A stretch of DNA of 37,151 nucleotides from a virus. Both the position numbers and the translations under genes were made by a program. Where the stretch lies: the IMG/VR virus record IMGVR_UViG_3300045581_000062, positions 1 through 37,151 of that record. The stretch is one strand, 5' to 3'. Each line of letters opens with the position of its first letter. The first letter of the stretch is position 1. The notes under the pieces are model-generated. The model saw only the letters and a list, made by a program, of their open reading frames with translations. It was not told the DNA's origin and ran no database searches. Of the stretch, positions 14,316 through 25,230 are shown piece after piece.

Positions 14316-15329
14316 TCAAACGAAAAGCGAGGCAATCTGGGTCGGCGTTAGCTTAACCAGCCACGCCTCGCGATCCTTGACACCGAAGGAGAGGATGAAG
14401 TACCCGTCGTGCTCGACGATGCCGGCACAGAACTCAATCTGCTCGCCCTTAAAGTAAAACTCGCGCCCCGCCCGTACCGGCTCAAGGTTGGCGTTATAGG
14501 CAACCAGCCGGTGAGCGTAATAGACTCGGTTCTTGTGCTTGCGGCGCTGGTGGACGACGCCGAGCCACTCGCCACCGTAGGGGATGATCTGCGAGCCGCC
14601 CGACCAGCCTTGCAAGATAGGGAAGGCGCCGAGCCAGATTCGTGTCCTAGCCGGGTAAATCTCAAACGACTCAGCCGGGTGGTGCGAGTACACGAACGCC
14701 AAGCGTGCGCCATTAGCGCATGGCATCCAGTTCTTCTCCATCTCGCGGGTGTGCGGGCTGTGGAGGAACTCAAATCGGTCAATGTGGGTCTTATTTAGCT
14801 TGGCCCACGCCATCGTGGTGCGCACACGGGGGCCGTGATGCAGGGCCGAGCAGGTAAACTGCCACGCACCGTCAAACCAAAAAAGCCGCGCATCCTCAAG
14901 GCCATCGCGGGCAGGCAGCCGGTTCTGGCGTACCTGTAGATCGTCCACCCATTCGACCGACTTTTGCTGCGCCTTAGAGTCAAGCGTCACGAAATAGTTG
15001 CGCGTATTCGGCGCAGGGTCGCCACGGAACCAGATGCCGTCTTCCTCGCCGAGCTCATAGTTCACCGTGCGCACGAGACACGCCAAGTTCCCGTCAGCAT
15101 CCTTGGCAATGGATGGGTTACACGGAAAAAACTTTTCCGACTCCGGCACCGTGAGGCGCACGAAGGCGTCAGCCGGCAGATAGTCGCCTAAGATTACGCC
15201 GCCTTCGGCGGGGAGGGCGGCTTCGGGTCTTTCGGGTCTGGGGCTTTCTTCGACTCCGGCTTCGGCGGCGCTTTCTTGTCGAGGCGCTTTTGGAAGAGCA
15301 GCACGTCGCTTGGCTTTAACATTCATCAT
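14316..15329 (-). CDS. GH130-like beta-propeller glycan enzyme
   Basis: The open frame is 337 codons, but the real start is uncertain. From about residue 57 it looks like a five-bladed beta-propeller of the GH130/GH43 type. Repeating blade motifs are NPSIAKDADGNLACLVRTVN, GLEDARLFWFDGAWQFTCSA, NWMPCANGARLAFVYSHHP, GGSQIIPYGGEWLGVVHQRR and EFCAGIVEHDGYFILSFGV. Known members cleave or phosphorolyse mannosides. The first 45 residues are low-complexity with poor codon usage and lie over another small frame with a better ribosome site. Translation may start later (GTG at residue 57) or by coupling. It sits between a GT25 gene and the portal gene, so a role in glycan trimming or binding is likely. 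Substrate unknown. Confidence 0.7.
   Translation of the reverse strand: MMNVKAKRRAALPKAPRQESAAEAGVEESPRPERPEAALPAEGGVILGDYLPADAFVRLTVPESEKFFPCNPSIAKDADGNLACLVRTVNYELGEEDGIWFRGDPAPNTRNYFVTLDSKAQQKSVEWVDDLQVRQNRLPARDGLEDARLFWFDGAWQFTCSALHHGPRVRTTMAWAKLNKTHIDRFEFLHSPHTREMEKNWMPCANGARLAFVYSHHPAESFEIYPARTRIWLGAFPILQGWSGGSQIIPYGGEWLGVVHQRRKHKNRVYYAHRLVAYNANLEPVRAGREFYFKGEQIEFCAGIVEHDGYFILSFGVKDREAWLVKLTPTQIASLFV
15194..15322 (-). CDS. Small overlapping Lys/Pro-rich ORF
   Basis: A 42-residue frame that overlaps the 5' end of the GH130-like gene. ATG at 15322 has an ideal site (GAGGAG, seven bases upstream), 12 bases after the GT25 stop. The product begins MLKPSDVLLFQKRLDKK and continues Pro/Lys-rich (PPKPESKKAPDPKDPKPPSP). 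Its codons mostly end in G or C, as in the rest of the genome, whereas the competing frame uses many A- and T-ending codons here. I think this frame is translated and the long frame is not, at least over this stretch. Function unknown. Confidence 0.6.
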   Translation of the reverse strand: MLKPSDVLLFQKRLDKKAPPKPESKKAPDPKDPKPPSPPKAA

Positions 15330-15333
15330 CTCC

Positions 15334-15942
15334 TCACATATGGATTGTGGAAGGCATCGGCACGGCCAAGTCTTGCGTGGCCTGCGATACCAGTGGCGGG
15401 ACGGCGGTCAAAACTCGCAGATGCGGCAGGGCGTGCCACTCGAGCAGTATATCGACCGGAGTATTGGCGGGCTTCGTGTACTGCTGCAGCGTCGGGATCG
15501 CACGGCGGCGGTGCCAGATCGCGGCGGTACAGAGCGGGTACTTGATCTCCCACAGGTTCGTGGACTCCTTCTTGCCCGGCTTGTCGGTCGTGCAGCAGGA
15601 GTTCAAGTACACGAGGTCGCACCAGTGCGGTATCTCCTCGCGAATCTGTGCGAAGCGTTCGTTGAAGTTATCGGGCAGGATGAAATCATCCTCAAAGATC
15701 ACGAACTCCTCGTGACCGTCGCGCCATGCGATCTGCCACGCGATGTGCCATGACAGAACAAGACAAGTCGCGCCACGGGTGACGTAATAATCCGTGTGCA
15801 TCGGAATCTCTGACTTGACCTGCATGGTCTTGCCAAAGATGCCTTGGATAAAGTCGAGCTCTATGCCGGCCTTGGCAGCCTGCGCTCGAGCGTGTTCGGT
15901 GCGCTCGGGAGTTTCGGCGAGGGTGATGCAGTAGTATTTCAT
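15334..15942 (-). CDS. GT25 family glycosyltransferase
   Basis: A 202-residue enzyme of glycosyltransferase family 25 (LPS galactosyltransferase type). It begins MKYYCITLAETPERTEHARA, the usual start of the family. It continues with ELDFIQGIFGK and LSWHIAWQIAWRDGHEEFVI, and the metal/nucleotide site FEDD is at residues 83-86. PVDILLEWH near residue 165 fits the acceptor part. The family adds sugars to lipooligosaccharide or collagen-type substrates. Gene overlaps: it starts within the stop of the methyltransferase gene (ATGA). With its neighbours it forms a carbohydrate block between terL and the portal gene. Confidence 0.8.
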   Translation of the reverse strand: MKYYCITLAETPERTEHARAQAAKAGIELDFIQGIFGKTMQVKSEIPMHTDYYVTRGATCLVLSWHIAWQIAWRDGHEEFVIFEDDFILPDNFNERFAQIREEIPHWCDLVYLNSCCTTDKPGKKESTNLWEIKYPLCTAAIWHRRRAIPTLQQYTKPANTPVDILLEWHALPHLRVLTAVPPLVSQATQDLAVPMPSTIHM

Positions 15943-16499
15943 CGTTCGCGAATAAAGAATAACAAAGTGGGACGCCCCCAGCCGGAGCCTTGGCGATTAT
16001 TCGTATCACGAAATTTGCACGACGTGATCCAGTCGCACTTAAAGCCGTTCTCAGCGAAGCGGTCGATCCAATACTCGGTCAGTTGCTCGTTGACGTGATG
16101 ATGCCCACCCTGCCCGGGAATGGCGTGGCACATGAGGACGTACTTGCACTTGTGCATCGTCGCGAACCAGTTCGGCTCGCAGCGTTGCTCAACGTGCTCG
16201 ACGAACTCGGTGCAGATCGCAAGGTCGTACTCGCGCTCGGGCACATACGGGCCGCGCTCATAGTCGTGCGAGATGAGAATTTCTTTGCACGGGCTTTCTT
16301 GAAGCGCGACCGGGTGCCCCTCAACGCCGCGAGCGTCAAACCCAAGGTCGTGCCACCACTTGATGTTATGGCCGTACCCGGCGCCGATGTCGATGACCGA
16401 CTTGATGTTATAGGTCAGCGCGAGATACCCCCAGATGTCGGGCATCCACGTCGCACGGTCGCCCTCTGGGATAAATCCACCTAAATGGTCAATGCTCAT
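15939..16499 (-). CDS. SAM-dependent methyltransferase
   Basis: A 186-residue class I methyltransferase. The SAM-binding motif I is VIDIGAGYGHNIKWW (residues about 35-49), followed by motif II (ARGVEGHPVALQ) and the post-I segment YDLAICTEFVEHVEQ. The C-terminus has the strand-pair RPTLLFFIRER. There is no DPPY or similar amino-methylation motif, so DNA methylation is unlikely. A sugar or small-molecule target fits better given the adjacent GT25 gene. It overlaps the terL stop by four bases and the GT25 start by four bases. The substrate is unknown. Confidence 0.75.
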   Translation of the reverse strand: MSIDHLGGFIPEGDRATWMPDIWGYLALTYNIKSVIDIGAGYGHNIKWWHDLGFDARGVEGHPVALQESPCKEILISHDYERGPYVPEREYDLAICTEFVEHVEQRCEPNWFATMHKCKYVLMCHAIPGQGGHHHVNEQLTEYWIDRFAENGFKCDWITSCKFRDTNNRQGSGWGRPTLLFFIRER

Positions 16500-18155: not shown

Positions 18156-18167
18156 ATGTTATAACAT
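18156..18167. promoter_or_regulatory. 12-bp palindrome at end of terS
   Basis: ATGTTATAACAT is a perfect 12-bp palindrome that ends at the last base of the terS stop codon. It is AT-rich in a GC-rich genome and is a candidate operator. Confidence 0.45.
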
Positions 18168-18682
18168 TACGTCGGTTCTGATGACTCGCGCACGACCGAA
18201 TCAGCGTCCGTTGCTGTGTCGCGAGTAAGCTTTTCGGGCTCCACCGAGGCCACCGTTTTCATCAAGTTTCGGACAGCCTCAAGGTGAAGCGCGGTCGTAT
18301 CCGTCACCTCCACCTTCGCCTGCATCTTGTCGCCGTACGTTTGCATATCCAGACGCGACGCGACCCACTTGCGAATGTCAGCCGCAGCCCTCGCAGCGTG
18401 AGGATCAATCTGCGACTCTTCGACGCTATTAGCCAGCTTCTCCATTCGCTCGACGTGCCACTGCGCTCGAGCATGACGAGCCGCCAGGACTGCAGACTTG
18501 CGCTCCTCGTTGTCGAACAGGAACCGATGCAGCCGGCCATAAGGAATTTGGTTAGCGACCGCAAACTCTGCAAGGCTTCCGCCAGTCGAAACGTACTCGC
18601 AGATTTCGCGCATGAAGTTTGGGTTATTAAGGATCGCGATTGCTCGGTCGCGCTTCTCTCGTTTCTGTGGTGATCCTGCCAT
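18167..18682 (-). CDS. terS: Terminase small subunit
   Basis: A 171-residue protein upstream of terL. It has an N-terminal helix-turn-helix-like region (REICEYVSTGGSLAEFAVAN, then QIPYGRLHRFLFDNEERKSA) and a central coiled coil (ARHARAQWHVERMEKLANS). A C-terminal part ends in an acidic tail and contains DIRKWVASRLDMQTYGDKM, which I recognise from terminase small subunits. It should bind the packaging site and load the large subunit. The ATG overlaps the stop of the zinc-finger gene. Confidence is high because of order and motifs. Confidence 0.83.
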   Translation of the reverse strand: MAGSPQKREKRDRAIAILNNPNFMREICEYVSTGGSLAEFAVANQIPYGRLHRFLFDNEERKSAVLAARHARAQWHVERMEKLANSVEESQIDPHAARAAADIRKWVASRLDMQTYGDKMQAKVEVTDTTALHLEAVRNLMKTVASVEPEKLTRDTATDADSVVRESSEPT

Positions 18683-18987
18683 CAGTCGTCGCTAACGTGA
18701 ACGTAAGTCGTCACGTCCTCCCAGTCTTGTTCGTATCCTTCCAATGGAACCACGTCGAAGTTACTCCACGTTCTTTTCGGTCGCTGCTGGTTGTCCTCCA
18801 GATGCGACTTCTTCACGCCCTTGATCGGCCTGTTCTTGATCTCGTCTGCATAGACTCGCTTCCAGACGCGTTCGCTCGTGGAGAAGCGCAGCCCGCAGGT
18901 CATACACTCTCTGCGTCGTCTCGCCTCGGTCGGGAACTGATAGACCTTCACGACCTCGCTCGGTTTCGAGCACTTTGGACATTTCAT
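18682..18987 (-). CDS. NrdR-like zinc-ribbon protein
   Basis: 101 residues from ATG 18987, which overlaps the nuclease stop (ATGA). The first part, MKCPKCSKPSEVVKVYQF, then RRRRECMTCGLRFSTSER, reproduces the zinc ribbon of the NrdR repressor with four Cys in CxxC pairs. The ATP-cone that completes NrdR (about 100 more residues) is absent; instead there is a short charged tail ending YVHVSDD. NrdR binds DNA upstream of ribonucleotide reductase genes. This protein may therefore bind DNA without nucleotide sensing, near the terminase genes. Confidence 0.7.
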   Translation of the reverse strand: MKCPKCSKPSEVVKVYQFPTEARRRRECMTCGLRFSTSERVWKRVYADEIKNRPIKGVKKSHLEDNQQRPKRTWSNFDVVPLEGYEQDWEDVTTYVHVSDD

Positions 18988-19307
18988 CTCTCGGGCAGCT
19001 CTTTCTTTGCGATCTTCAGCCAATCCTCAAGCGGCTGGATAACGAGGAACTCACGCTTATCGCCACGGCAGATGACGACCGGCACGTCATAGCCAGCGCA
19101 CGCTGCTTTCACTTGGTCGATCCATTCGTACACCGCAATCGACTTGCGGCGCTTCACCTCGATAACAAACTGGGCCAGTCGAATATCGGCACCGCCATCT
19201 CTGGCCTGCCCTAGCTCACGCTTGACCACCCAGCCCGTTTGCTCCGCTATCTTGTCGCAGACCTCGCGTTCGGTTTCTGCGCCTCTTTGTCGTTGTCGCT
19301 TTCCCAC
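18984..19307 (-). CDS. PD-(D/E)XK Holliday-junction-type nuclease
   Basis: 107 residues from GTG 19307. The N-terminus, MGKRQRQRGAETEREVCDKI, carries the early Glu. RDGGADIRLAQFVIEVKRRK carries the catalytic Asp41, Glu50 and Lys52 (pattern D-x8-E-x-K). Length and layout match small archaeal-type or phage Holliday-junction resolvases and VRR-type nucleases. A GGTGAGAC stretch precedes the start. The gene lies 5' of the terminase genes, where many phages keep a resolvase to debranch DNA before packaging. Its 5' end overlaps the zinc-protein gene by 92 bases. Confidence 0.7.
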   Translation of the reverse strand: MGKRQRQRGAETEREVCDKIAEQTGWVVKRELGQARDGGADIRLAQFVIEVKRRKSIAVYEWIDQVKAACAGYDVPVVICRGDKREFLVIQPLEDWLKIAKKELPER

Positions 19308-19509: not shown

Positions 19510-19799
19510 CGCCAATCGTCCGCGTCAGATTTCCAGCCGATCATCTTGCTGGCTTTGGGTAGTTCTTCGTACTTGGCTTCCTCAGCCCTCGCTGCCGCCT
19601 TCTCAAACGTGTCGAAGACGCCAAGGTTCTTTGGGATCGTCTTGCCATCAGGGCCGCGCCTCCAAACGACGAACTCCTGTTTACCCCCGATAGTCTGCCC
19701 TCGGATACTGAACCGACGACACGCCGAGGTCTTGCCCCAGAAGTCGGAGTCCTCCCACGACAACGGCCCGGTTAGGTTCAGACTGGTCTGTCTAGTCAT
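19506..19799 (-). CDS. Small protein of unknown function
   Basis: 97 residues from ATG 19799, with AGGA eight bases upstream, which decides this start over one ten codons further up. The sequence is MTRQTSLNLTGPLSWEDSDF, then FVVWRRGPDGKTIPKNLGVF, DTFEKAAARAEEAKYEELP. It has a small beta-strand region and a helix, like short double-stranded nucleic acid or integrase arm-binding folds (AP2-like), but I cannot assign a family. It belongs to the chain of overlapping genes between the helicase and terminase genes. Confidence 0.6.
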   Translation of the reverse strand: MTRQTSLNLTGPLSWEDSDFWGKTSACRRFSIRGQTIGGKQEFVVWRRGPDGKTIPKNLGVFDTFEKAAARAEEAKYEELPKASKMIGWKSDADDWR

Positions 19800-20019
19800 G
19801 CGTCCAGTCCTGCCGCTTACCCACCTCACCGGCTTGGTCAGCGTAGTGAACTAACTTTGCACCAAACTGCTGTTGAAAGGTTTTGATGACCGAGAAGTCA
19901 TCCGGCCCCAGCACGTCGAGCATTCGCCGTGCTAGTGGCGTGGACGCAACAGGTGTGGATAACTCCATTCGCTTCTCTGCACCAAACTTGTGCTGCTGCA
20001 ATAATTTCTTCTTTCTCAC
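19792..20019 (-). CDS. Small protein next to putative origin
   Basis: 75 residues from GTG 20019. An excellent site (GGAG, six bases upstream) supports this start; the open frame also allows TTG 20037. The N-terminus is basic (VRKKKLLQQHKFGAEKRMEL), followed by ARRMLDVLGPDDFSVIKTFQ. It contains a perfect DnaA-box sequence within its coding region (19954-19962). Position beside the iteron region suggests a replication or control role, but no motif proves this. Confidence 0.6.
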   Translation of the reverse strand: MRKKKLLQQHKFGAEKRMELSTPVASTPLARRMLDVLGPDDFSVIKTFQQQFGAKLVHYADQAGEVGKRQDWTHD

Positions 20020-20160
20020 ATTCGTCTCCCATGTCAAAATCCTATGCTCGGGTCATGTCCGAATGTCCGAGACCATAGGTCTCTCGGACTTTCGGACATA
20101 CTTGACCGTCCGAAAGTGTCCGAATTTGACGCTTTCGGACATTCGGACATTTAATCCACA
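19954..20160. other. Candidate replication origin
   Basis: Between the primase-polymerase stop (20151) and the next gene (20019), eight hexamers GTCCGA/TCGGAC are arranged as two nested inverted pairs. These are GTCCGA at 20057 and 20065, TCGGAC at 20084 and 20092, then GTCCGA at 20108 and 20118, TCGGAC at 20135 and 20143. Spacing within pairs is 8 bp, except one of 10. TGTGGATAA, a perfect match to the DnaA box of E. coli, lies at 19954-19962. An 8-of-9 match in the other orientation is at 20152-20160. The AT/pyrimidine-rich segment 19999-20016 could be the unwinding element. An operator is the alternative reading. Confidence 0.6.
20055..20150. repeat. Iteron-like nested inverted repeats
   Basis: Two adjacent palindromic blocks, each with two GTCCGA copies on one strand and two on the other. 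The first has the arms ATGTCCGAATGTCCGAGA and its near-perfect complement around ATA. The second has GTCCGAAAGTGTCCGAA and its near-complement. Each block could form a long hairpin in single strands or bind a protein dimer pair. Confidence 0.85.
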
Positions 20161-22208
20161 GCCAGCTTCGATCCGCCGACCGTCGCGACCATGAACGGCG
20201 ACATCATCAGCTTCTCGACCGCATCGTGGACAGACTGCCGGCTCAGGCCGCACTCCCTGCCCACCTGCCGCATCTCTTCCATGGTCCAGACCAGTTCCGA
20301 CTCGGCGCGCTTCTGACGCTCCCGAAGCGCCAGCAGGATCGTCTTCTGAGCCTTGCCCTGCGGAACCTGCGCCGCGACCGGCTTATCCCCATGAGCGACC
20401 GTCTCGCGCATGACTAGACTGGTCAGACGCTCCCCGTACCGATCCGCCGCGCCGAGGTCGACCACCTCCGCCTCATAGGCGAGGTTCGGTAGTTCCCCGG
20501 TATCCTTGAACCGCTGCCGCGTGACCTCGACGTGGGTGTTGGGCTGCGCCGCGCGCTTCACAATGTACTCCGCGTCTGGGTTTGCCATGAGCGCGCTGGC
20601 GCCTCTCGGTCGGTCAGAGTCGCCGTGCCCACTGTGCGCCACGATCAGCACGCTCGCCTCGTACCGCTCGCGGATGAACCGACTTAATTGGGACAGGTAC
20701 GCCGCGACCTCCTGGTTAGAGTTCTCGTCCATGCCGGCGCTGAACTTGGAGAGCGTGTCGACCACGACGAGCTTGGGTCTGACGCCCGCGGTGTCGACCG
20801 CCTGCACCAGAAGCGCCATCTCCTCCTCGCGGTTGAGGTTGAGCGGCCGCTCGAGCGCCAAGATCGGCAGGTCGCGCAGCTTCTGACCGCCGCCAAAGGT
20901 TTGCATCCATGCCTTAACACGACGCCCCAATCCGCCACCCTCACCCGAGAGCAGCGCGACAGCCTCGCCTGCCATCGCGACCCGCATCGCCCAGTCGAGC
21001 GCGATAAACGACTTGAAGCTCGCCCGCGGCCCCGCGAGCACCGCGACGACCTTCGCCTCGATGACGCGATGAAGCAGCCACTCCGGCTCACGGTTCTCGT
21101 CCACGATATCCGCGACGTGCCGCAGCTCGACCTTGAAGCCAAGACTGGCCTCAGTCTGCGCCGCGACTGATTTCTGTGTCTCGGGTTCTGTGACGCGGAT
21201 CATCCCTTGAGCCTCCGGTACGTCCGCATATTCGTTGGCCTCAAACGTCGGCAAATCAACCGGCGGCCCAATGCGCACCGCCTCCGGCATCGACACCCAA
21301 CCGCCCGCCTTGGCCGCGTTAAATAGACTGCCGAGCGTGACCCTGCCGCCACGGTCAAGATGGAACGACTGCCACCGATACTCAATATCGGCACGGCCTG
21401 CGTAAGATGCCGGAAGTTCTCCCGTAATGCCGCCACTTGACCACGAGTCCCAGAGCTCGAGCCCGTCGTCGGCACCGCCGGAGGCATAGTGCAAGGCCAT
21501 GCCTACCATGAGCCATGCGTCGTAACCAGCCGGGTCAACGTAGGCAAGCGCCTCGGTGATCCTCGGCAGGTCGCGCTGGAAGTCTTGACTGGTACCAGGC
21601 TTCGGCGGCAGTTTCTTGGCAAGTTCTGCGGGTAGCTCCAAGTCCATGCGCCGCTCGTCAATAAGCCCCGCGGGTAGCGGCTGAATGTCGTTATTGAGCC
21701 CGTGCTGCCCGTAGTGCAGAGGCCACCAGATGATGTACCCGCCCTCGGCGCGGATGTCGATACCGTCGCGCTTGACCTTGCCGAGCGTGACGCTGACGCC
21801 GCCACGGATTTTGACCCCGTGCGGCAGGCTGAATAGGTAGTGCCGCCCGCCGCTACCGCCGCCGGTCTGGTGGACTCGAGTGCCGGTCAGTGCTTGCTGA
21901 TTTTCGACCAGCCATTCTTGAGCCGCGTGAGCAGCCGCTCGATGATCGTAGTCGAGGACGGCGAGCCCTGTTCGTGATCCGGTGGGTACGCCCACGAGTG
22001 CGTCCGGGCGATCTGCCCACCAGCGTCGGATTTGCGCCTCGTCTTGCGTGGCGTCTTTGAATCCGTTTTTGGTGAGCGGGCTTTTGGCTCGGAGCGTGCG
22101 CCCTTCTGAATCTTTCTCATCGTTCCTCCTGCAAGGAAATACTGGGTACTTCTTCGCCAGATCGAGCACGCGCTCGACCGGCACGATTGCCGTCAGCTCT
22201 GGTTTCAT
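20151..22208 (-). CDS. Primase-polymerase with RecA-like helicase domain
   Basis: 685 residues from ATG 22208, which overlaps the repressor stop (ATGA); the open frame runs further up but over the repressor gene. Residues 10-190 form a primase-polymerase (AEP) domain with the metal pair in VLDYDH (Asp86, Asp88), GRHYLF (His123) and GIDIRAEGGYIIWW. Residues 213-300 look like a PriCT linker domain (ITEALAYVDPAGYDAWLMVG). Residues 380-600 are a RepA-like hexameric ATPase with Walker A GPRASFKS (393-400) and Walker B LVVVDT (480-485). A winged-helix-like end (CGLSRQSVHDAVEKLM) follows. It should prime and unwind; synthesis then needs host polymerase. Confidence 0.88.
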   Translation of the reverse strand: MKPELTAIVPVERVLDLAKKYPVFPCRRNDEKDSEGRTLRAKSPLTKNGFKDATQDEAQIRRWWADRPDALVGVPTGSRTGLAVLDYDHRAAAHAAQEWLVENQQALTGTRVHQTGGGSGGRHYLFSLPHGVKIRGGVSVTLGKVKRDGIDIRAEGGYIIWWPLHYGQHGLNNDIQPLPAGLIDERRMDLELPAELAKKLPPKPGTSQDFQRDLPRITEALAYVDPAGYDAWLMVGMALHYASGGADDGLELWDSWSSGGITGELPASYAGRADIEYRWQSFHLDRGGRVTLGSLFNAAKAGGWVSMPEAVRIGPPVDLPTFEANEYADVPEAQGMIRVTEPETQKSVAAQTEASLGFKVELRHVADIVDENREPEWLLHRVIEAKVVAVLAGPRASFKSFIALDWAMRVAMAGEAVALLSGEGGGLGRRVKAWMQTFGGGQKLRDLPILALERPLNLNREEEMALLVQAVDTAGVRPKLVVVDTLSKFSAGMDENSNQEVAAYLSQLSRFIRERYEASVLIVAHSGHGDSDRPRGASALMANPDAEYIVKRAAQPNTHVEVTRQRFKDTGELPNLAYEAEVVDLGAADRYGERLTSLVMRETVAHGDKPVAAQVPQGKAQKTILLALRERQKRAESELVWTMEEMRQVGRECGLSRQSVHDAVEKLMMSPFMVATVGGSKLAVD

Positions 22209-23881: not shown

Positions 23882-24520
23882 ATGAGTCTGTTTATTAGTG
23901 CATCTGGTGGCGGTAACTTCCCCGAGCGCAAGCCTCTCGAGGCCGGCGCCTACGCGGCAGTCTGCGATATGGTCGTTGACCTTGGCGTGCAAGCGTCCCC
24001 TGGTGGGCAGTTCGCGCCCAAGCGCACGGTCGTGCTGCGCTTCCAAATCCCAGAGATTCGTGTCGAGATCACGAAGGATGGCGAGACCAAGAGTTTGCCA
24101 GCGGTCATCAGCCGCACGGTTGGCCTGAGCCTGAACGAAAAGTCCACGCTCTACGGGCTGCTCACCTCTTGGCGCGGCAAGGCGTTCACGGCTGACGAAC
24201 TCAAGAAGTTCGACCTCGGCAAAGTCGCCGGCAAGCCTGCGTTCATCAATGTAACGCACAGCGTTAAGGGCGACCGCACCTATGCGAACTTGACCAGCAT
24301 CATGCCGCTGCCGAAGTCGATGCCAGCCCCGGCGCTGGAGGGTGAGGCGCTCGTGTACTCGACCGACACGCCGGACTCGACGATCTTCGACAAGCTCCCG
24401 GCGTGGATACAGGACAAGATCGCCAACCGCATCATCGACCCACCGAAGGCTGCACCGAAGGCCGCTGCCAAGCCGGCGGCGACCGAGGAAGCCTTTGCTG
24501 ACGACTCGTTGGCGTTTTAA
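23882..24520 (+). CDS. SSB-like DNA-binding protein
   Basis: 212 residues. The start MSLFISASGGGNFPERKPLE and the beta-rich body (YAAVCDMVVDLGVQASPGGQ, AFINVTHSVKGDRTYANL) match a phage protein family usually coded next to a RecB-like nuclease. A disordered Ala/Lys/Pro linker (PPKAAPKAAAKPAA) leads to an acidic end (EEAFADDSLAF), like the C-terminal tip of SSB that recruits partners. It likely binds single-stranded DNA in replication or recombination. The OB-fold is inferred. The nuclease gene begins three bases after its stop. Confidence 0.7.
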   Translation: MSLFISASGGGNFPERKPLEAGAYAAVCDMVVDLGVQASPGGQFAPKRTVVLRFQIPEIRVEITKDGETKSLPAVISRTVGLSLNEKSTLYGLLTSWRGKAFTADELKKFDLGKVAGKPAFINVTHSVKGDRTYANLTSIMPLPKSMPAPALEGEALVYSTDTPDSTIFDKLPAWIQDKIANRIIDPPKAAPKAAAKPAATEEAFADDSLAF

Positions 24521-24522
24521 TC

Positions 24523-25230
24523 ATGCCGACACCACGTCAAGGGTATAAGGCGGCGGACGGGAAAAAGATTCCTAGCGTCACCACGATCCTCAAAATCAAA
24601 GACCCCGGCGCGCTCATCAATTGGGCGTATAAAACAGGCCGGGAACATGGCGTGCTGGAGGGGCAGGGTCAACCTGCCCCCTCTGGCCTCTACGAAGGCA
24701 GCGACATCCTCGCCATCGGAACCTGCGTCCACGCGATGTGCGAGGCATGGGTGAAGGGCGATGACCCGCTGCTGGTACTCGAGAAGGCGCTAGATGAGGA
24801 GACGGTCAACGATAAGGCGACGTTCCGCGCACAGGCTGCATCGGCTTACTCCGCCTTTGAGTTCTGGTGCAAGGGCACGCAGCTCGAGATCGTTGACTGT
24901 GAGGTGGCCGTAATAAGCGAGACGCACCGCTACGGCGGTACGCTCGACTTCATCGGCAAACTCAACGGGAAGCTCGTGCTTGGCGACTTCAAGACCAGTA
25001 ACGGCGTGTGGCCCGAGTATCTGTGCCAATTGGCGGCGTATGCGAAAGCCTACGAAGAGACGACCGGCAACAAGATCGACGGTGGTTATCACCTACTGAG
25101 ATTCTCAAAGGAGAATGGTGACTTCGGCCACCACTTCTACCCATCGCTCGACGACGACGCCTGGCCGGCCTTCCTGCACCTTCGCGCACTCTACGATCTT
25201 AACGAAAAACTCAAGAAGAGGGCAGCATGA
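24523..25230 (+). CDS. RecB/Cas4-like PD-(D/E)XK nuclease
   Basis: 235 residues. The nuclease core is visible: GTCVHAMCEAWVKG (His70), YGGTLDFIGKLNGK (Asp142), LVLGDFKTSNG (Asp155, Lys157) and YLCQLAAYAKAY (Gln169), the H-D-D-x-K-Q layout of RecB and Cas4 type exonucleases. No cysteine cluster for iron-sulphur binding is evident, unlike Cas4. Together with the SSB-like gene just upstream it forms a recombination or end-processing pair. No annealing protein (Erf/RecT/Beta) was seen next to it. Confidence 0.8.
   Translation: MPTPRQGYKAADGKKIPSVTTILKIKDPGALINWAYKTGREHGVLEGQGQPAPSGLYEGSDILAIGTCVHAMCEAWVKGDDPLLVLEKALDEETVNDKATFRAQAASAYSAFEFWCKGTQLEIVDCEVAVISETHRYGGTLDFIGKLNGKLVLGDFKTSNGVWPEYLCQLAAYAKAYEETTGNKIDGGYHLLRFSKENGDFGHHFYPSLDDDAWPAFLHLRALYDLNEKLKKRAA

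Follow-up and report, generated by a model that had tools for sequence, protein, structure and literature searches.

In phage lambda, the initiator O and its adjacent iteron array (ori) are type-specific as a pair. In PICI elements, iterons are found 3' of rep, and a cloned pri-rep-ori segment replicates (PMC6092414); the iterons of SaPIs are also 3' of rep, in the account of Ubeda 2007 cited in PMC7581432. The C-terminal domain of SCCmec Cch2 binds direct repeats immediately 3' of its gene (PMC7581432). A 100-bp stem-loop just 3' of the ORF904 gene is required for replication of the Sulfolobus plasmid pRN1, and the authors of that work suggested that Bordetella phage BIP-1 is organized in the same way (PMC4234260). 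As described in the same paper, the primase-helicase alpha of phage P4 binds origin repeats through a winged helix.

Here we analyze a repeat array in a 37,151-nucleotide stretch of viral DNA (IMG/VR record IMGVR_UViG_3300045581_000062, positions 1 to 37,151; hereafter the window). As in PICIs and SaPIs, iteron sets lie immediately 3' of a primase/rep gene; in those elements a C-terminal domain recognizes the origin, a role predicted here for the C-terminal winged helix. PICIs and SaPIs, however, are helper-dependent phage satellites, whereas the loci studied here belong to complete phages, the window encoding a portal and both terminase subunits; SaPI Reps carry other helicase domains (DUF927 or Primase_Cterm/D5_N) rather than Prim-Pol/PriCT_2/AAA_25; and their two iteron sets flank an AT-rich region, whereas the two sets in the window form two hairpins ca. 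10 bp apart, with no marked AT-rich melting region between them. pRN1 ORF904 likewise combines Prim-Pol, helicase and C-terminal winged helix (the last predicted in the phage protein), and its stem-loop 3' of the gene has a counterpart in hairpins that are kept despite low sequence conservation. The domains of ORF904, though, are an SF3 helicase and pRN1_helical rather than AAA_25 and PriCT_2, and pRN1 has one large stem-loop and no iterons, whereas here the iterons build the hairpins. P4 alpha is also a winged-helix primase-helicase, but with a TOPRIM-type primase instead of Prim-Pol. The SCCmec system has a separate primase-polymerase (CCPol-MP), three iterons and a different helicase family, and lambda differs in that the iterons lie inside the O gene, the binding domain is N-terminal and the helicase is the host's. 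Because of the pRN1, PICI/SaPI and SCCmec Cch2 precedents, the layout is of a known kind, and its novelty is limited. A first-pass annotation of the window, made from the sequence alone, had stated that no described phage family with this exact design is known; this was too strong, since both PICIs/SaPIs and plasmid pRN1 have iterons or a stem-loop directly 3' of their primase/helicase initiator. In the open-licence literature, we found no report of the layout in the phage family studied here or of repeated exchange of matched winged-helix-plus-array cassettes between near-identical phages, and a description elsewhere is possible.

A hexamer array follows a primase-helicase gene

The window contains 21 copies of the hexamer TCGGAC/GTCCGA, eight of them within 92 bp (20057-20148). 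This array occupies a 131-bp gap (20020-20150) that is bounded on one side by the primase-helicase stop codon (20151-20153) and on the other by the likely start of a 75-codon ORF, both encoded on the minus strand. Its copies form two palindromic clusters (Table 1). Across the window the hexamer is not enriched (21 observed versus 22.4 expected); locally, however, it reaches eight per 100 bp, compared with three or fewer in 300 order-1 Markov sequences, and it is the most clustered 6-mer of the window. The eight hexamers reported by the first-pass annotation are all present as placed, directly after the replication gene, and the density check that it proposed finds the hexamers dense at the array only. 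The GC skew does not reverse at the array; it is dominated by the bias in gene orientation.

Table 1. Positions of the array, the flanking genes and the DnaA-box sequences in the window
Feature	Position	Strand	Basis or remark
Hairpin/iteron cluster I	20108-20148		TCGGAC on - strand at 20108, 20118 and on + strand at 20135, 20143; palindromic cluster spans 20108-20150
Hairpin/iteron cluster II	20055-20099		TCGGAC on - strand at 20057, 20065 and on + strand at 20084, 20092; tip GACC-TAT-GGTC
Primase-helicase gene (domains Prim-Pol, PriCT_2 and AAA_25; predicted winged helix at C-terminus)	20151-22208	-	Pfam matches, alignment of relatives
Codons 601-684, winged-helix region switching with array word	20154-20405	-	Segment identity, trees, AlphaFold2 model
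Codons 656-667, predicted recognition helix	20205-20240	-	Model, class table; class-specific residues 656, 657, 658, 661
75-codon ORF past array	19792-20019	-	Likely GTG start at 20019; contains exact DnaA-box sequence
TTATCCACA, exact DnaA box	19954-19962	-	Inside 75-codon ORF; not conserved; not thought functional
TAATCCACA, one-mismatch DnaA box	20152-20160	+	Overlaps stop and last codons of primase-helicase gene; not conserved

The primase-helicase, in which we count as residue 1 the K that follows the likely start codon (ATG, 22206-22208), matches the Prim-Pol family PF09250 (E 7e-26) and, for the helicase part, AAA_25 rather than an SF3 domain. In an AlphaFold2 model, its last 90 residues form a winged helix that consists of three helices and a beta-hairpin as the wing (core pLDDT about 90); the full-length model is poor (pLDDT 49). 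Profile searches with the C-terminal stretch gave weak matches only, and in many cases the matched family was of the winged-helix or helix-turn-helix type; fold searches returned generic winged helices, none at E below 0.001. Searching PDB sequences with the whole protein yielded no relative. Nor do published phages contain the protein at full length, coverage being below 80% in every INPHARED record.

Several other genes of the window were recorded. A small protein encoded at 18682-19023 (minus strand) has an NrdR-type zinc ribbon (PF22811, E 4e-7), the rest of NrdR being unmatched, and is a phage-borne NrdR-like fragment. Divergent genes at 23882-25230 (plus strand) encode phrog_862, a conserved phage protein of unknown function, and then a PD-(D/E)XK exonuclease (phrog_298). 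A cluster at 14316-16499 (minus strand), between the terminase and portal genes, resembles sugar-modification genes (glycosyltransferase-like and methyltransferase-like), as judged by eye only.

The array keeps its place among relatives while its word varies

A tblastn-confirmed scan with the primase-helicase protein yielded 80 viral loci that were kept. In every relative with enough downstream sequence, which amounts to dozens of IMG/VR records, the stop codon is followed by an array built in the same way. Its repeated word varies by lineage (GTCCGA, GTCCGG, GTTGGA, GGTCAA or GTACGA), and within one phage most copies are of the same version. The element thus stands at the same place in relatives, which bears out the synteny comparison suggested at first pass, though with a different word. 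A scan with a 16-base piece of the array returned mostly the same family; exact-pattern matches outside it (L082, L100, L105 and others) have two hexamers each and look like chance, and the L141 protein used as a query found no viral relatives. In one locus of the GGTCAA class (L051, 2070-2160), the primase-helicase frame lacks the usual stop and reads into the array. Five others (L110, L116, L124, L096 and L106) keep the C-terminus and the GTCCGA array, but up to about residue 300 they are not part of the best alignment with the window protein; the Prim-Pol half may have been exchanged there too.

The 75-residue protein, which the first-pass annotation had named as a candidate binder of the array, has no family match and is replaced in some relatives (e.g., L043 and L072) in which the array remains. 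We rejected it as the binder and do not think that its ORF is part of the element.

The same annotation had pointed to DnaA boxes on both sides of the array and proposed an origin dependent on host DnaA plus a phage protein. Both sequences are there, an exact one ca. 100 bp from the array and a near match beside it, but each lies in coding sequence outside the gap. Among 57 relatives, an exact box occurs near the array in three, and an exact or near-exact box in five; within the window, TTATCCACA with at most one mismatch is found five times versus 3.8 expected, which is chance level. Given these counts in the relatives, dependence on DnaA is not supported and a composite origin of this kind is highly improbable, whereas recognition by a phage protein, the other part of the proposal, belongs to the best explanation of the array.

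The word switches with the C-terminus of the primase-helicase

We compared 65 distinct full-length proteins. Pairs with different words share up to 96-99% identity over residues 1-560 and ca. 50% in the last 85, and pairs with the same word that are ca. 70% identical elsewhere show ca. 75% in the last 45 residues. A maximum-likelihood tree of residues 1-540 requires 12 changes of word, versus four, which is the minimum, for a tree of residues 601-684. By codon window, the count falls from 21-24 (1-300) through 17 (301-360), 11-13 (361-540) and 6 (541-600) to 4 (605-684); for the 260 bp upstream of the gene it is 24. Linkage to the gene downstream of the array is weaker, with five changes versus two for the C-terminus in the same 25 loci.

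Individual pairs show where the switch occurs. The L140 and L046 proteins (GTCCGA and GGTCAA, respectively) are 98.4% identical over residues 1-560 and ca. 50% identical over 601-684; DNA identity between these loci is reduced in a region that extends from about -450 to about +150 relative to the stop codon, and is back to 86-98% just past the array. In this pair and in L084/L045, the C-terminus and array make up a low-identity block of ca. 0.6 kb with high identity on both sides. The closest pair, L139 and L023, have the words GTCCGA and GTCCGG and show 19 differences over 684 residues. Of these, 14 fall within 619-682, including Q657S and D661E in the predicted recognition helix. At residue 657, every GTCCGA protein has Q, while the other classes have S (GTCCGG), H (GTTGGA), Q (GGTCAA) and T (GTACGA).

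As far as these alignments and trees indicate, the winged-helix segment and array behave as one specificity cassette of roughly 0.4-0.6 kb, apparently swapped by recombination between phages, and the protein that binds the array is most likely the primase-helicase itself, via its predicted C-terminal winged helix. Because adjacency alone would also make neighbors travel together, the co-switching is strong circumstantial evidence of recognition rather than proof.

An array in an intergenic gap, ahead of a same-strand ORF that begins 36 bp past the last hairpin, could also be an operator, at which the primase-helicase C-terminal domain or another phage regulator controls downstream transcription without any origin role. 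Many repressors contain winged helices, and among PDB folds the C-terminal domain is matched best, though weakly, by the DNA-binding domain of the AraR repressor. Nevertheless, a scan found no sigma-70-like promoter at the array, which is inherited with the helicase C-terminus rather than with the downstream gene and stays beside the primase-helicase in L043 and L072, where that gene is replaced; moreover, the experimental precedents with such a gene order are origins. An operator without an origin role is therefore unlikely, and the two roles do not exclude each other.

Arrays in other phages, a second lineage and plasmids

Arrays after the same kind of gene were also found in Roseobacter phage CRP-406, Salicola phage CGphi29, Idiomarinaceae phage 1N2-2, Alteromonas phage XX1924 and Rhizobium phage RHph_X2_25. 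The paper on CRP-406 makes no mention of repeats or iterons. In that phage, a single-stranded DNA-binding protein and a PD-(D/E)XK nuclease are annotated alongside the primase-helicase, which recalls the phrog_862 and PD-(D/E)XK exonuclease genes of the window. The XX1924 protein has a TOPRIM primase instead of Prim-Pol, and a scan with it revealed a second, independent TOPRIM-RepA lineage with arrays in 46 of 72 entries, sorted into about 14 words. Near-identical proteins with differing words diverge at the C-terminus only: L249 and L256 share 98% identity over residues 1-500 and then 73/48%, and L258 and L265 share 90% and then 53/48%. The remaining 26 entries have no array after the gene and have different C-termini, a group that comprises most of L246-L264 and L286-L299.

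A RepA-type helicase gene followed by an array is present in four plasmid records, from Klebsiella, Caenibius, Methylomagnum and Xanthobacter. The Caenibius plasmid p1 is a phage-plasmid. Methylomagnum plasmid pRS11DPr4 encodes ParA as well as restriction systems; neither a phage structural gene nor another replication initiator is named in its annotation as listed, a listing that is deliberately incomplete. About 1 kb past the helicase-gene array, pRS11DPr4 has another block of repeats, denser than the first and with a similar word, TCCGCGA/ACCTCGC (L325, 5500-5850). No array follows the gene in the Prim-Pol plasmids of Ochrobactrum and Shewanella, in Caulobacter GB2A, or in Bordetella phage BPP-1 and other relatives of the gene; BPP-1, a near-identical relative of the BIP-1 discussed in the pRN1 paper, has no iterons there.

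These neighborhoods also bear on packaging, since the gene for the terminase small subunit (18167-18682) is ca. 1.4 kb from the array in the window and the array could be a pac/cos site bound by terminase. However, the constant neighbor of the array is the primase-helicase gene, the adjoining genes are not terminase genes in some phages and plasmid records, and the word tracks the primase-helicase C-terminus. Of the explanations weighed here, a packaging site is the least probable.

Both clusters fold as hairpins across word classes

Hairpin folding of both clusters is seen across the word classes, with z-scores of -4.2 to -9.4 in 17 representative arrays (-7.7 in the window), except for L025 at -1.1. 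Among GGTCAA-class arrays, the tip of hairpin II, which is not made up of word copies, differs by paired changes (e.g., AAAA..CCC/GGG..TTTT versus CACT..CCC/GGG..AGTG), as judged by eye from the alignment; thus, base pairing as such seems to be preserved. It may act as symmetry of the duplex, in single-stranded DNA or in RNA. Hairpins this strong, found in almost every class and with paired changes beyond the words, would suit a terminator or structured RNA near the end of the primase-helicase mRNA (3' side), acting in attenuation, mRNA stability or translational autoregulation. Against this, scans of the window gave no terminator-like site and no Rfam match at the array, and no tRNA was found. 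Furthermore, a hairpin needs complementary arms only, yet the same word occurs in direct as well as inverted copies; Caenibius p1, in which 11 of 12 word copies are direct, and RHph_X2_25, with 12 copies over about 240 bp, suit protein sites on duplex DNA. We regard an RNA element as very unlikely.

Discussion

The array is probably a phage replication origin of the iteron-hairpin type, which the C-terminal winged helix of the primase-helicase would bind and with which it would be swapped as a cassette. We infer a course of events in which this domain would bind the iterons and two hairpins, the helicase part would be loaded at the array and open the DNA there, the Prim-Pol part would prime, and the host replisome would probably take over. 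Exchange of the cassette by recombination between phages would then leave protein and origin matched.

More tentatively, origin specificity may be a diversifying, exchangeable "replication type". Near-identical phages would repeatedly swap the winged-helix-plus-iteron cassette, possibly escaping replication interference by co-infecting relatives or satellites with the same word, and the hairpins would serve as priming sites for Prim-Pol. We offer this as a speculation.

A related layout is seen here both in two lineages of complete phages and among plasmid records. For many unannotated phage genomes, it suggests a simple way of proposing an origin, namely to seek repeats directly behind the gene for the primase-helicase. 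Since the main differences between near-identical proteins can be those of the winged helix and its matching word, the set also amounts to a natural experiment on how winged helices read DNA, in which the five words of the first lineage and about fourteen of the second make the rules of recognition directly testable.
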